A stretch of DNA of 55,716 bases from Mizugakiibacter sediminis (GTDB taxonomy: Bacteria > Pseudomonadota > Gammaproteobacteria > Xanthomonadales > Rhodanobacteraceae). The stretch lies in the NCBI RefSeq assembly GCF_000953855.2, contig NZ_DF970209.1, positions 4,203-59,918 on the forward strand, in the 5' to 3' direction. Below the pieces are notes generated by a model that was not told where the DNA came from, made no database searches, and was given only the letters and a program-made list of their open reading frames with translations. This document shows positions 32,511-37,757 of this stretch, in pieces. A program made the translations under genes and the position numbers. Numbering within the stretch: the first letter of the stretch is position 1; every line of letters starts with the position of its first letter.

Positions 32511-32611
32511 GCGCGGCCGCGGCGCCCGCGCGCTGCGGCAGCGATTTCCGCGGCGCCGTTCCGCCTCTACACTCTTTTCTCGCGCCCCTCCACTCGTTTC
32601 CCGCGGCACCC

Positions 32612-33061
32612 ATGAGCGCCTCCGACCTCTACCGCGACCTCGTGCTGGAGCACAACCGCAGCCCGCGCGGCTTCGGTTCGCTGCCGACCCGCACGCACGC
32701 GGCCGAGGGCGACAATCCGCTGTGCGGCGACCACCTGCGCATCGAGCTGGCGGTGGACGCCGCCGGCCGCGTGCGGGACTTCGCCTTCAGCGGCCAGTCC
32801 TGCGCGATCACCACCGCCACCGCCTCGCTGCTGGGCGAGCGCGTGCGCGGCCTGGACGCGGCGGCGATCGCCGAGCTGGAGGCGCGTTTCGCCCGCCTGG
32901 TGCGCGGCGAATGCGCGGCCGATCCCGCTCTGGACGGCCTGAACGCGCTGGCCGAGCTGCGCGCCTATCCGGCGCGGCGCAAGTGCGCGCTGCTGCCGTG
33001 GGCGACGCTGGCCGCGGCGCTGCGCGGCACCCCTCACGCCACCACCGAAGCCAACGCATGA
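32612..33061 (+). CDS. sufU: SufU-type sulfur acceptor protein
   Basis: 149 residues, IscU-fold. The zinc and sulfur-accepting ligands are present: C38 and D40 in NPLCGD, C64 in SGQSCAI, C125 in ARRKCALLPW. The insertion between the last two Cys blocks is the SufU type rather than IscU. SufU accepts persulfide from SufS, as in Firmicutes and in Xanthomonadales. This operon has SufU and no visible sufE or sufA. It overlaps the following GNAT gene (ATGA). Confidence 0.93.
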   Translation: MSASDLYRDLVLEHNRSPRGFGSLPTRTHAAEGDNPLCGDHLRIELAVDAAGRVRDFAFSGQSCAITTATASLLGERVRGLDAAAIAELEARFARLVRGECAADPALDGLNALAELRAYPARRKCALLPWATLAAALRGTPHATTEANA

Positions 33062-33603
33062 GCGCGAACCCGACGTTCCGTTTCGCCGAGCCGGCCGACG
33101 TGCCGGCGATCGTCGCCCTGGTCGAATCCGCCTACCGCGGCGACGCCAGCCGCGCCGGCTGGACCACCGAGGCCGACCTGCTGGACGGCCAGCGCACTTC
33201 CGCGGCCGACCTGCTGCCGCTGCTGCGCCCGCCGCACAGCCGCGTGCTGCTGGCCGAGCGCGGCGGCGAGCTGCTCGCCTGCGCGCACCTCGAGCGGCAG
33301 GGCGAGGCGGCCTATTTCGGCATGTTCTCGGTGCGGCCGACGCTGCAGGGCGGCGGCGTCGGCAAGGCCGTGCTGGCCGAAGCGGAGCGGTTCGCGCGCA
33401 GTGAGTGGGGTTGCCGCGAGATGCAGATGGCGGTGATCGACCTGCGCACGGAACTGCTCGCCTGGTACGAGCGCCGCGGCTACCGGCGCACCGGCATCTT
33501 CAAGCCGTTTCCCTACGGCGATGCGCGCTTCGGCATCCCGAAGCGCGACGATCTGCGTTTCGAGCTGCTGGTGAAGCCGCTGCCGGCGGAGCGCGCCGCA
33601 TGA
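33058..33603 (+). CDS. GNAT-family N-acetyltransferase within the suf operon
   Basis: 181 residues. GNAT fold: the acetyl-CoA loop is VRPTLQGGGVGKAVLAEAE (Gln-Gly-Gly-Gly-Val-Gly), the C-terminal Tyr-containing block is LLAWYERRGYRRTGIF. The start MSANPTFRFAEPADVPAIVALVESAYRG is standard. It is coupled by ATGA overlaps on both sides, to sufU and to the Rieske gene, so it is expressed with the Fe-S assembly genes. Its substrate is unknown; nothing in the sequence points to a particular partner. Confidence 0.88.
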   Translation: MSANPTFRFAEPADVPAIVALVESAYRGDASRAGWTTEADLLDGQRTSAADLLPLLRPPHSRVLLAERGGELLACAHLERQGEAAYFGMFSVRPTLQGGGVGKAVLAEAERFARSEWGCREMQMAVIDLRTELLAWYERRGYRRTGIFKPFPYGDARFGIPKRDDLRFELLVKPLPAERAA

Positions 33604-33914
33604 GCGGCTGGGTGCGCGTCTGCGCGCGCGGCGAGCTGCTGCCGGGCGAATTCAAGGTGGTCTACGACGGCGACACGCTGATCGCCGTGTTCAACATCGA
33701 CGGCGACCTGTACGCGGTCGAGGACGTGTGCACGCACGACGGCGGCGAGCTGACCGGCGGCGAACTGCACGGCTACGAGGTGGAGTGCCCGCGCCACGGC
33801 GCGCGCTTCGACGTGCGCACCGGCGAGGCGCTGTGCGCGCCCGCCTACGCGCCCACGGCCAGCTTTCCGGTCAAGGTCGAGGACGGCGTGATCTACACGC
33901 GCGACGACCGCTAG
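33600..33914 (+). CDS. Small Rieske-type [2Fe-2S] ferredoxin
   Basis: 104 residues. The Rieske cluster ligands are C44/H46 in VCTHDGGE and C63/H66 in CPRHGARF, in the correct order and spacing. The protein matches the ferredoxin subunit group of non-heme iron oxygenases, but there is no oxygenase gene beside it. In this lineage such a ferredoxin is often the last gene of the suf operon, perhaps as an electron donor or cluster acceptor. Its TAG stop overlaps the convergent kinase gene's TAG stop in CTAG (33911-33914). Confidence 0.92.
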   Translation: MSGWVRVCARGELLPGEFKVVYDGDTLIAVFNIDGDLYAVEDVCTHDGGELTGGELHGYEVECPRHGARFDVRTGEALCAPAYAPTASFPVKVEDGVIYTRDDR

Positions 33915-35299
33915 ACGCCGGGCGACGTCGGCAGGCGCACTTCGACGCGCAGGCCGCGGCCGCCGCTGCCGTTGCCGAAACGCACCCGGCCGCCGTGGTG
34001 CGCGGCGATCTCGCGCACGATCGCCAGGCCGAGCCCGCTGCCCTCGCGCAGCGTGCCGGGCACGCGGAAGAAGCGTTCGCCGAGCCGCGCCTGCAGTTCG
34101 GCCGGTACGCCGGGGCCGTCGTCCTCGACCCACAGCGTGGCGGCGTCCGCGTCGGCTTCCACGCCCACGGTGACCTGGCCGCCGTCGCGGCCGTAGCGCA
34201 TCGCGTTGTCGACCAGGTTGCACAGCATCTCGCGCAGCAGCACGGCGTCGCCGCGCAACGGCACGCCGCCGTCGGGACCGAGGTAGCCGAGGTCGATCTG
34301 CTGCGCCAGCGCCTCCGGCACGCGCTCGGCGACGCAGTCGCGCGCCAGCGCGGCCAGGTCGAGCGGCGCGGCGGCGAGCAGGGCCGGCTCGTGCGCCTGC
34401 GTGCGCGCCAGCGCCAGCAACTGGCCGGCGGCGCGGCCGGCGCCCTCGGCCAGACGTACGACGTGGCCCAGCGCTTCGCGCACGGTTTCCGGGCGCGGAT
34501 CGGCGAGCGCGCGTTCGGCCTGCAGGCGCAGCCCCGCCAGCGGCGTGCGCAGCTGGTGCGCGGCGTCGGCGATGAAGCGCTCCTGCAGGCGCACCATCTC
34601 GCGCAGGCGCATCAGCAGCACGTCGATGGTGCGCGTCAGCGGCAGGACTTCCACCGGCACGCCGGCGGTGTCCAGCGGAGCCAGGTCGCGCGGATGGCGT
34701 GCGCCGACCTGCGCCACCAGCGGATCGAGCAGCCGCAGGCCGCGGCCGATCGACAGCCAGACCACGCCCAGCGCGAGCAGCACCAGCGCCAGTTCGATCG
34801 GCAGCGTGCCGAGCAGGATCTCGCGCGTGAGCTGCTGCCGCTTGTGCAGCGTCTCGGCGACGGAAACGACGATGCGGTCGCCGGGCTCGTCCGCGGCGAA
34901 CGCCACCGTGGCCATGCGCATGGCGTGCCTGCCGATGCGGATGTCGTCGAACACGGCGCGGTCGGCGCCCGCCGGCAGCGCGGCCGGCGTCGGCAGCTCG
35001 GCGTTGCCGGACAGCAGGCCGTGGCGCAGGCTGCGCACCGCGAACAGGCTGCGGTCCTCGCTGTCGAATTCGATCAGCAGCCGCGCCTGCGGGTTCAGCT
35101 CGTTGCGGGCGGCGCCGCTCTGCGCCAGCCGTTGCAGGGCGCGCGCCGAGTCGAGCAGCCAGCGGTCGTAGACGCGGCCGGCATAGCGCAGCGCCAGCCC
35201 GTAGGCGACCAGCGCGCCGATCGCGAGGATCAGGAACAGCGGCGGCGCCAGCAGCAGCAGCAGGCGCCGGCGCAGGCTGGGGGCGTCAGCGGACGCCAT
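33911..35299 (-). CDS. Sensor histidine kinase (TctE/QseC-like)
   Basis: 462 residues. One transmembrane helix near 12-36, a periplasmic domain (about 40-160), a second helix (about 162-184), a HAMP-like linker and a HisKA domain with H248 in DAAHQLRTPLAGLRL. The HATPase domain has LCNLVDNAMRY (N-box), EDDGPGV and GSGLGLAI (G-boxes). The organisation resembles TctE and QseC, whose ligands vary. It lies 23 nt downstream of the response regulator gene, so the two form one unit and one signalling pair. Confidence 0.93.
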   Translation of the reverse strand: MASADAPSLRRRLLLLLAPPLFLILAIGALVAYGLALRYAGRVYDRWLLDSARALQRLAQSGAARNELNPQARLLIEFDSEDRSLFAVRSLRHGLLSGNAELPTPAALPAGADRAVFDDIRIGRHAMRMATVAFAADEPGDRIVVSVAETLHKRQQLTREILLGTLPIELALVLLALGVVWLSIGRGLRLLDPLVAQVGARHPRDLAPLDTAGVPVEVLPLTRTIDVLLMRLREMVRLQERFIADAAHQLRTPLAGLRLQAERALADPRPETVREALGHVVRLAEGAGRAAGQLLALARTQAHEPALLAAAPLDLAALARDCVAERVPEALAQQIDLGYLGPDGGVPLRGDAVLLREMLCNLVDNAMRYGRDGGQVTVGVEADADAATLWVEDDGPGVPAELQARLGERFFRVPGTLREGSGLGLAIVREIAAHHGGRVRFGNGSGGRGLRVEVRLPTSPGV

Positions 35300-35322
35300 C
35301 GGCGCACTCCGCGTCGCGGCGT

Positions 35323-35994
35323 TCAGTCATCGCCGGCTTCCAGCAGGTAGCCGAGCCCGCGCACGGTGCGCACGCGCGCGCCGCAACCTTCCAGCTTGCG
35401 GCGCAGGCGGTGGATGCTGATGTCGAGACCGTTGTCGGTGAGCGTGGTGTCCCAGCTGCACAGCGCCTCGATCAGCGCGGCGCGGCTGACCACGCGGTCG
35501 CGGCGCGTCGCCAGCGCTTCCACCAGGCCGAACTCGCGCGCGGTCAGCTCCAGGGGAATGCCGTCGACGCTGGCGCGGCGTCCGGCCAGGTCGATGTGCA
35601 GGCGGCCGATCACCAGCTCGGGCGCGCCCTGGCTGGCGCGCCGCCGCTGCAGCGCGCGCACGCGCGCCGTCAGTTCGGCCAGGGCGAACGGCTTGACCAG
35701 GTAGTCGTCGGCGCCGAGGTCGAGCGTCTCCACGCGCTCGCGCAAGGCGTCGCGCGCGGTGATCACCAGCACCGGCACGGTGTCGCCGCGCTGGCGCAGG
35801 CGGCGCAGCAGGCCGGCGCCGTCGCTGTCCGGCAGGCCGAGATCGAGCAGCAGCAGGTCGTAGGGGTGGTCGCGCAGCGCGTGCTCGGCGTCGCGGCCGC
35901 GCGCGAGGCTGTCCACCGCGTGCCCGGCCTGGGTCAGCGCCGCGCTCACGGCACCCGCGATCGCCGCGTCGTCTTCCACCACCAGCACTCGCAT
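35323..35994 (-). CDS. OmpR-family response regulator
   Basis: 223 residues. Receiver domain with phosphoacceptor D51 in LLLLDLGLPDSDG, acidic pocket residues EDD (7-9), and Lys in LVKPFALAEL (conserved switch). The winged-helix DNA-binding domain covers about 130-220, ending with YLLEAGDD. Partner of the adjacent kinase. Target genes cannot be told from sequence. The gene starts the leftward pair, and the 161-nt upstream gap contains an orphan plus-strand terminator. Confidence 0.94.
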   Translation of the reverse strand: MRVLVVEDDAAIAGAVSAALTQAGHAVDSLARGRDAEHALRDHPYDLLLLDLGLPDSDGAGLLRRLRQRGDTVPVLVITARDALRERVETLDLGADDYLVKPFALAELTARVRALQRRRASQGAPELVIGRLHIDLAGRRASVDGIPLELTAREFGLVEALATRRDRVVSRAALIEALCSWDTTLTDNGLDISIHRLRRKLEGCGARVRTVRGLGYLLEAGDD

Positions 35995-36102
35995 GATCGT
36001 CTCCGTCCGGCGGACGCCGGTTGCACTAAAGCGTAGCCGCTCCGGCAGCGGTGGCAGCGAAAGGCTGCGGAAAGCCGCGCACCCTAGCTTGGCATCCGTT
36101 CA

Positions 36103-36156
36103 GGGCGCCGGTCTCGCGCCCCCTCACGCCCGTGCGCCCCTGCACGGGCTTTTTTT
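36103..36156 (+). ncRNA. Candidate small RNA 3' end, with orphan rightward terminator
   Basis: Within the gap between the response regulator and the HutD-like gene, both leftward, lie two hairpins in rightward sense: GGGCGC...GCGCCC (36103-36121) and GCCCGTGC...GCACGGGC (36128-36149). The second is followed directly by seven T (36150-36156). No plus-strand coding gene ends here; the nearest, the Rieske gene, stops 2.2 kb away. The 5' end is not determinable; I see no strong promoter. A short RNA transcribed from near 36030-36095 is one explanation. Confidence 0.35.
36128..36156 (+). terminator. Intrinsic terminator, rightward, with no upstream plus-strand gene
   Basis: An 8-bp perfect GC-rich stem with a 6-nt loop and a run of seven T on the plus strand. 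On the minus strand the hairpin is preceded by A and followed by GTGAGG, so it would not stop leftward transcripts of the neighbouring genes. The T-run overlaps the stop codon of the HutD-like gene on the other strand. Confidence 0.75.
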
Positions 36157-36740
36157 CAGCGTTCGACCGGCGCGTCCGCGGCCAGCCGGGCCAGCACGAT
36201 CTCGCCGTTTCCCTCCAGCATGGCACGCTCGCCGGCATCGCGGGTGAAGGCCGCCCAGGCGGGCGCGTTGACCTCCAGCGCCAGGACCGCATTCGCGCTG
36301 CGCAGCGTTGCCCGGCCCGCCACCGGGTAGACGAACCAGCGCTCGCCGGGGCCGGCGAACAGCAGCATCGAGCCCAGCAGCGGCCGCGCCAGCAGTTCGC
36401 CGCGCGCGCCGTCGCGCAAGGCCAGGCTGAACACGCGGGTGGGATCGGCGTGCGGCGCGACCCGCGCCGGATCGCCGGCGGCGAGGCGCGCGACGCCGAG
36501 GCGCGGCACGCGCCGTTCGCGCGGCGCCTCGCCCAGCAGGAGATCCGCATCCAGCGGCACCAGCAGGCGTCCGGCGTCGGTGGGGCCGGCGCAGGGCGCG
36601 CCGGGATCGGCGCGCGTCATCGCCAGCCGCCAGCGCCAGGCGGCGGCGTCGGGGCCGGCGGCGAACACGGTGTCGACGCCGCCGTCGGCGCGCACGGCCG
36701 CGCGGATGTCGGCGCGGGCGATCGCCGCGAGGCGCGCCAT
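36156..36740 (-). CDS. HutD/Ves-like cupin protein (divergent)
   Basis: 194 residues. The order of motifs resembles the HutD/Ves family, though weakly: WRWRLAMTRAD (compare RWRVSIAEVA in the paralogue at 37809), then RLLVPLDADLLL, a central MLLFAGPGERWFVYPVAGRATL, and a final GNGEIVLARLA. It lacks the family's GPTRDFN block. It lies one base after the DUF3147 gene. The second, better HutD relative lies two genes away. Function unknown; the family call is tentative. Confidence 0.4.
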   Translation of the reverse strand: MARLAAIARADIRAAVRADGGVDTVFAAGPDAAAWRWRLAMTRADPGAPCAGPTDAGRLLVPLDADLLLGEAPRERRVPRLGVARLAAGDPARVAPHADPTRVFSLALRDGARGELLARPLLGSMLLFAGPGERWFVYPVAGRATLRSANAVLALEVNAPAWAAFTRDAGERAMLEGNGEIVLARLAADAPVER

Positions 36741-36741
36741 G

Positions 36742-37086
36742 TCAGCGTCCGAACACGGCCGCCAGCCGCAGGCCGGCCGCGTAGGCGAGCAGGGTGGCGG
36801 CGGTCGCGCCGGTCAGGCTCCAGCCGAAGCCGACGCCGGCGCGCAGCAGCAGCGGCAGCACCACGAACAGCGCCAGCGACGGCAGCACCAGCCAGAGGAT
36901 GTCCAGCGAGAAGGCGGCGAGGCGGGCGGGGTCGTGCGTGTCGCGCCACAGCCACAGCATCGCCAGCAGCGAGGTCAGCGGCAGCGAGGCCAGCAGCGCC
37001 CCCGCCAGCGTGGAGCGGCGCGCCGCCTCGGAGGCGCCGGCGATCAGCAGCGCGGAGATCACGGTTTTCAGCAGGAACTGGGCCAT
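36742..37086 (-). CDS. DUF3147 small membrane protein
   Basis: 114 residues, four hydrophobic segments. Start MAQFLLKTVISALLIAGASEAARRSTLAGA matches DUF3147 proteins, and the next segment LLASLPLTSLLAMLWLWRDT is the family hallmark. The inner membrane location is clear, but the function of the family is not established. The start at 37086 was chosen because the longer frame lacks membrane character. It precedes the HutD-like gene by one base. Confidence 0.85.
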   Translation of the reverse strand: MAQFLLKTVISALLIAGASEAARRSTLAGALLASLPLTSLLAMLWLWRDTHDPARLAAFSLDILWLVLPSLALFVVLPLLLRAGVGFGWSLTGATAATLLAYAAGLRLAAVFGR

Positions 37087-37205: not shown

Positions 37206-37757
37206 TCAGCGTTCCGTGGCGTGGTGCGGCGGGTAGTAGGCGTAGACCTGCACCGGCGCGCCGAGGAAGTCGACTTGGTCGACCAGCTGGCCGCCGAGGC
37301 GCTGCGCGACCTTGGCCGCCGATGCGTTGCCGGGACGCACCAGACTGACCACGCGCGGCGCGTGCAGGGTGCCGAAAGCGAAGGCCAATACGGCGCGGCT
37401 GGCCTCGGTGGCGTAGCCGCGGTGGCGATGCTCGGGTTTCAGCATCCAGCCCAGCTCGATGTCGGGCCAGCCTTCCGGGCGCATCAGCCCGGCGCGGCCG
37501 ACGAAGGCGCCGTCGGTCTTGCGCTCCAGCGCCCACATGCCGTAGCCGCGCAGTTGCCAGTGGCCGAGTAGCATGGCCAGCGAGCGCCAGGCGTTCATGC
37601 GGTCCAGCGGCTGGCCGTCGCCGATCCAGCGGGTGCTCTCGGGGTCGGCCAGCATCGCCGCGTAGGCGTCGAAATGGCCTTCGTTGAAGGCGACCAGGCG
37701 CAGGCGCTCGGTCTCCAGGACAGGAATGTCCGGCATGGCGTTGGCGGGACGGGACAT
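37206..37757 (-). CDS. RimJ/RimL-type GNAT acetyltransferase
   Basis: 183 residues. Start block VLETERLRLVAFNEGHFDAYAAM is typical of RimJ/RimL relatives. The CoA-binding block is HRGYATEASRAVLAFAFG, followed by VRPGNASAAKVAQRLGG, the usual Asn of the family. The ATG at 37757 was preferred over a GTG at 37766. Several ribosomal proteins and metabolites are substrates in the family, so the target is unknown. Confidence 0.87.
   Translation of the reverse strand: MSRPANAMPDIPVLETERLRLVAFNEGHFDAYAAMLADPESTRWIGDGQPLDRMNAWRSLAMLLGHWQLRGYGMWALERKTDGAFVGRAGLMRPEGWPDIELGWMLKPEHRHRGYATEASRAVLAFAFGTLHAPRVVSLVRPGNASAAKVAQRLGGQLVDQVDFLGAPVQVYAYYPPHHATER

Follow-up and report, generated by a model that had tools for sequence, protein, structure and literature searches.

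A predicted small RNA gene with a putative response-regulator promoter, divergent from a QseB/PmrA-like two-component system in Mizugakiibacter sediminis

In the window, the stretch of 55,716 nucleotides of Mizugakiibacter sediminis DNA analysed here, the segment 36097-36156 is probably a small RNA gene which reads rightward and is divergent from the genes of a QseB/PmrA-like two-component system. By sequence prediction, it has a promoter and a terminator of its own, lies between genes and holds no open reading frame, which are the attributes of a bacterial small RNA gene. An unannotated small RNA had been suggested at this place by a sequence-only reading which started from the terminator, and it appears to be the best reading of the locus, the terminator, the 5' hairpin and a promoter-like element all being kept in the sister genome. 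Its activator is probably a QseB/PmrA-like response regulator, which would make it a counterpart of the csRNAs of streptococci that CiaR activates. The features of the locus are collected in Table 1. The within-genus comparison comprises two genomes, that of the window (G000) and its sister (G001).

Table 1. Features at and around the predicted small RNA gene (window positions).
Feature	Position	Strand	Remarks
QseC/PmrB-like sensor histidine kinase	33911..35299	-	cognate partner by position
QseB/PmrA-like OmpR-family response regulator	35323..35994	-	divergent from the RNA; best profile scores PmrA, QseB
Predicted response-regulator box	36059..36076	+	GAAAG-N6-GAAAGCC, direct repeat, half-sites 11 bp apart; identical in G001
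Predicted -10	36085..36090	+	TAGCTT, 8 nt after GAAAGCC; TAGCGT in G001, same spacing
Predicted small RNA, about 60 nt	36097..36156	+	start from the -10 (+/-2 nt), end from the T-run
5' hairpin	36103..36121	+	6-bp stem GGGCGC/GCGCCC, loop CGGTCTC
Unpaired linker	36122..36127	+	CCTCAC, by fold prediction
Terminator hairpin	36128..36149	+	stem GCCCGTGC/GCACGGGC (36128-36135 / 36142-36149), 8 bp perfect, 6-nt loop GCCCCT
Terminator T-run	36150..36156	+	T7; T9 in G001
HutD-like protein gene	36156..36740	-	Pfam HutD 26.2 bits, cut-off 25; stop codon abuts the T-run

The site at 36128-36156 has the form of an intrinsic (Rho-independent) terminator, a GC-rich hairpin followed directly by a T run. The perfect 8-bp stem with a seven-T tail, which had been described as pointing rightward, was borne out by a strict scan of both strands (perfect stem of at least 7 pairs with at least 5 G/C, loop of 3-8 nt and at least 6 T), where it was the only site of the window, and no site was returned in 40 order-1 simulated windows. 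A lenient scan with default settings also gave this site alone between 33000 and 39000; since 1.4 sites are expected there by chance, it is the strict test that carries weight. Across the entire genome of G000 the word GGGC-N-TTTTTT has only three occurrences. The genes on either side run leftward, as had been stated and as the layout of open reading frames confirms.

The predicted transcript begins at about 36097, 7 nt after the conserved -10. The sequence-only reading had considered a 5' end between 36020 and 36095 possible, which is slightly early. Folding of 36097-36156 gave a z of -3.4, and longer segments scored less (-2.1 for 36060-36156 and -1.2 for 36020-36156). With two hairpins and the T-run, the segment agrees with the earlier description of the end of a structured RNA. 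The second hairpin announced just before the terminator is indeed present, with a stem of 6 bp, and taken by itself it is weak evidence: when 31-nt stretches of the window are drawn at random, about 9% hold an equally good hairpin, and in sequence of 73% GC, as found around it, a 6-bp hairpin is ordinary. Fold prediction leaves the 5' tail, the loop of the 5' hairpin, the CCUCAC linker and the GCCCCU loop of the RNA single-stranded.

It is very improbable, in our opinion, that what ends at 36156 is instead a longer plus-strand transcript or a small-protein gene. An 84-codon plus-strand open reading frame (35993-36247) does span the region, and in G001 a GTG placed shortly before the predicted start of the RNA begins a frame of 28 codons, which is still open where the tested stretch ends. 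Nevertheless the 84-codon frame runs past the terminator, and the one ATG, GTG or TTG found in 36091-36156 opens only 8 codons inside the terminator. Moreover the closest gene on the plus strand, Rieske-type by eye, ends at 33914, the 2.2 kb upstream that had been given for it.

Upstream of the predicted RNA, G000 and G001 have in common the pattern GAAAGGC-N4-GAAAGCC-N8-TAGCKT. Judged against the csRNA promoter recipe in PMC3091779, this is the geometry of an OmpR-family-activated promoter, in which a direct repeat with an 11-bp period takes the place of the -35, at about 10 bp upstream of the -10. A hexamer-N5-hexamer arrangement with the same 11-bp half-site period is also described for the HP1043 sites in PMC8345958. 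The bare repeat GAAAG-N6-GAAAGCC has one exact match in each of the two genomes, and a reversed control is equally frequent. When the repeat without the -10 was searched in 147 family genomes the enrichment was weak, with 76 among the matches listed against about 54 for the control, both being hand counts.

The composite of box and -10 gave 38 matches in 197 family genomes against 1 for the reversed control. These matches fall in 35 genomes and in 4 of 26 genera: 2 in this genus, 13 in g10, 14 in g17 and 9 in g24, the composite being present in 13 of the 18 g10 genomes, 14 of the 16 g17 genomes and 6 of the 16 g24 genomes. No exact match was found in the 22 other genera of this search. The pattern was drawn from this locus (genus g1) and from g10 before testing, so g17 and g24 are independent cases; as sites within a genus share ancestry, the 38 matches amount to a handful of independent cases.

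Thirty of the matches were inspected as loci, 6 of them in g24. Outside this genus the composite mostly precedes protein genes. Of the 13 matches of g10, 11 proved on verification to stand ahead of the orthologous response regulator. In g17 all 14 precede one and the same alpha/beta hydrolase gene, identified by a Pfam scan of one copy. Four of the 6 inspected g24 matches stand before a gene for an MtnX-like phosphatase, the other 2 preceding frames of no assigned family. At the verified sites of these three genera the box reads GAAAG...GAAAGCC toward the downstream gene, with the -10 following 8 nt on.

Within G000 and G001, allowing up to 2 mismatches in the composite gave 17 matches against 4 for the control; the genomic context was viewed for 8 of the 17, and the others may be due to chance. 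The promoter of the predicted RNA is the sole perfect match in each genome. In both genomes a site with 1 mismatch stands before a paralogous QseB/PmrA-like regulator (L324 and L325, at about position 1500), with 28-29 nt between the end of the -10 and the start codon. Having its own box and -10, this paralogue is likely to be autoregulated, as judged from the sequence. A gene for a PAP2 phosphatase also has the site in G001, with 1 mismatch and thus tied with the paralogue site, and in G000, with 2. A further site of G000, again with 2 mismatches, precedes a gene for an alpha/beta hydrolase that shares 64% identity with the g17 protein.

What ties the predicted box to the regulators is adjacency, with regulator genes beside it in this genus, in g10 and at the paralogue. 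Since regulator genes recur as neighbours of the box without having been selected for, the box is the predicted site of this regulator subfamily. The adjacent response regulator has its best scores with the models of PmrA and QseB, short of the cut-off in both cases. A published QseB site, which is CTTAAN4CTTAG in PMC10714720, differs from the GAAAG box both in half-site and in spacing.

The orthologous regulator was found at E below 1e-80 in 99 of 147 family genomes. A first scan for the box used 91 upstream regions, which represent 86 different orthologues, 4 paralogues and one genome counted twice (L063 and L188). Nine of these regions, 2 of this genus and 7 of g10, matched in at least 11 of the 12 positions, with 0 in 1820 mononucleotide shuffles; at the regulator locus the box is therefore not family-wide. 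The divergent neighbour of the regulator was also recorded. In L063 and L188, both from the one genome of Frateuria terrea, it is a gene for a PAP2-type phosphatase; these are 2 of the 91 regions, and the idea that PAP2 is the usual divergent neighbour was rejected. In the genus of the window the PAP2 homologue is located elsewhere, yet carries the regulator box. What lies divergent from the regulator in other genera, L044-L053 among them, often looks like a gene for a PepSY-type membrane protein (by eye), which in these regions is preceded by GCGAGTGATTCTCATTTGTG, a sequence which we take to resemble a Fur box.

The box could also serve the leftward response-regulator gene by autoregulation, in which case the rightward -10 would be fortuitous and the rightward RNA incidental. 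The box does lie between the two start sites, and in g10 it precedes the orthologous regulator gene. Nevertheless the verified boxes of g10, g17 and g24, and that of the paralogue with its one mismatch, read toward the gene that they precede, with the -10 placed 8 nt further on, whereas at the RNA locus the box is oriented toward the RNA and away from the regulator. We regard this explanation as quite unlikely, and prefer a promoter that would drive the small RNA.

In G001 both hairpins are found at the same place, followed by T9 and with CCCCT in the terminator loop (TTCCCCT). The terminator stem shows one compensatory pair (T-A to C-G) and has lost its eighth pair. The 5' hairpin has five of its six pairs identical, the sixth being unformed, and no covariation. 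With these five pairs invariant and a single compensatory pair in the terminator, the covariation is thin.

The block aligned by blastn with contig 36 of G001 (32611-36156) ends exactly at the last T, and the alignment resumes at 37208. The HutD-like gene, which lies outside the RNA gene, and the 114-aa gene that follows it are both absent from this syntenic contig by tblastn (best E 0.012 and 1.6, respectively). As the alignment stops at 36156 and the genes to the right differ, the terminator belongs to the regulator side. The window thus holds at 36156-37086, directly after the terminator, two leftward genes, HutD-like and PRK09272-type, which the syntenic contig of G001 does not have; judging from the alignment, this is an insertion or a loss exactly at the T-run.

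Beyond the genus the element was sought by several means. A DNA similarity search of 147 family genomes recovered the own genome clearly and G001 with an E of 0.0055, and short matches in other genera had E values similar to or better than that of G001. We regard these short matches as due to chance, and the G001 homologue is recognisable by synteny alone. In 299 genomes of the order, at an E of 1e-4, only the own genome was matched. A run of at least 6 T within 400 nt upstream of the regulator was present in 2 of the 91 regions, both of this genus, and in none of other genera. Conservation of the stem and T-run in relatives, which the sequence-only reading had named as a test, was thus found in G001, and at this locus it did not extend outside the genus in the 91 regions.

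A covariance model built from the two sequences (R1) had matches at E of 1 or below in 83 of 197 genomes, the two of this genus included, and outside the genus the matches went down to an E of 1.3e-8. Eighteen of the best outside matches were inspected, and they are other terminators with a C-loop, or hairpins within coding sequence, at loci unrelated to this one; a wider homologous RNA family is for this reason not claimed and was rejected for now. Rfam 15 at the gathering threshold gave no match in the whole window, nor in 14 further loci. The best permissive match in 35990-36200 scored 16.9 bits against a threshold of 50, which places the RNA outside all Rfam 15 families. The likeness to anti-hemB (RF02837; 15.3 bits, gathering score 49.5) and to Betaproteobacteria_toxic_sRNA (RF02278; 16.9 bits against 50) amounts mainly to a GC stem with a T-run after it, and membership in either was rejected.

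Among 24 terminator-like sites collected from 347 kb (the window and a further sample), the terminator of the predicted RNA is the only one with CCCC in the loop. The CCCC is kept in the G001 terminator. Two further terminators of G000 outside this sample have the loops CCCGC and GAAA, and unpaired CCCC is absent from the four remaining strong GGGC-N-T6 sites found in G000 and G001, although one of these, in G001, has a C-rich loop. Since the CCCC loop occurs in both species and is absent from the other 23 sites, we infer that it may pair with G-rich translation starts in the manner of sX13.

Other terminators with C-rich loops occur in the genomes analysed. One in G001 (G001:C10:111298; L253, at about position 1500) has the loop CCCACCC and T7, comes after C-rich sequence and lies between leftward frames and a rightward frame (UspA-like by eye); it is another small-RNA candidate. 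Four loci of the genera g10 and g17 (L208, L209, L212 and L221, at about 1440-1560) share a similar sequence that ends in a C-loop terminator, with TTCCCAAGGTTGCCGAGAGGCACC in L208 and L212, 1-2 letters off in L209 and looser in L221. This shared element has no match in Rfam and is a candidate for a conserved small RNA.

The sequence-only reading had offered as alternative a barrier to antisense transcription. The terminator would then be a guard against spurious transcripts that run rightward from the promoter of the divergent regulator; it would shield the leftward genes from antisense transcription, and the short RNA would have no function of its own. It stands 3' of leftward genes in both genomes though those genes differ, and the sequence of the RNA is only moderately conserved between G000 and G001, which would suit such a role. 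However, the guard leaves a dedicated promoter element unexplained: the box and -10 point at the terminator, and no copy elsewhere in either genome matches as well. Moreover the position of the 5' hairpin and the CCCC loop are kept, and the other sampled terminator-like sites are without such loops. We consider the guard unlikely, and the small RNA gene remains the preferred reading.

The csRNAs of Streptococcus, which depend on CiaRH, were found by a hexamer-N5-hexamer-N10-(-10) geometry and then a terminator (PMC3091779). The likeness consists of the response-regulator promoter geometry with a terminator downstream, a short RNA (with two stem-loops in many csRNAs) and an unpaired stretch complementary to Shine-Dalgarno sequences. 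The RNA described here differs in belonging to another phylum and another regulator, with GAAAG in place of TTTAAG half-sites, in having one perfect site per genome, and in carrying its pairing stretch mainly in the terminator loop. With half-sites other than TTTAAG-N5-TTTAAG and a regulator that is best on PmrA/QseB models, it is not a CiaR-dependent csRNA in the sense of that text; the likeness is taken as an analogy and no homology is claimed.

The small RNA sX13 of Xanthomonas, a member of a related bacterial family, acts through its C-rich loops to repress mRNAs that carry G-rich motifs close to the start codon (PMC3771888). Both are strongly structured small RNAs with C-rich loops (CCCC/CCCCC). 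The same paper gives sX13 as 115 nt long, with three stem-loops bearing C-rich loops and a position beside polA, whereas the RNA predicted here has about 60 nt, two hairpins, one CCCC loop and a position beside a two-component system. Length, number of hairpins and neighbourhood thus separate it from sX13 as described there.

The following mechanism is suggested. The phosphorylated QseB/PmrA-like regulator, be it the adjacent one, the paralogue or both, would bind the direct repeat. Once bound, the active regulator would replace the missing -35 contact, by analogy with the csRNAs, and activate the promoter to give the RNA of about 60 nt. Less certainly, the CCCCU of the terminator loop, and perhaps CCUC in the linker, might pair with G-rich Shine-Dalgarno regions, and such pairing might repress the target mRNAs, by which the two-component system would gain a post-transcriptional repressing arm.

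We would tentatively suggest that this genus recruited the box of the two-component system for a small RNA with a C-loop, driven from the best-matching regulator site of the genome; elsewhere in the family the system appears to control its own gene as well as genes for hydrolases or phosphatases. A csRNA-like output would then have evolved independently in Gammaproteobacteria. In the open-access literature, no small RNA tied to a QseB/PmrA-like system in Rhodanobacteraceae was found among the matches listed. The analysis thus provides a testable regulator site, a promoter geometry and a predicted small RNA for a two-component system of this family. Should the C-loop work in the proposed way, streptococci and this group would each have evolved, separately, short structured RNAs that are under response regulators of this type and target Shine-Dalgarno regions.
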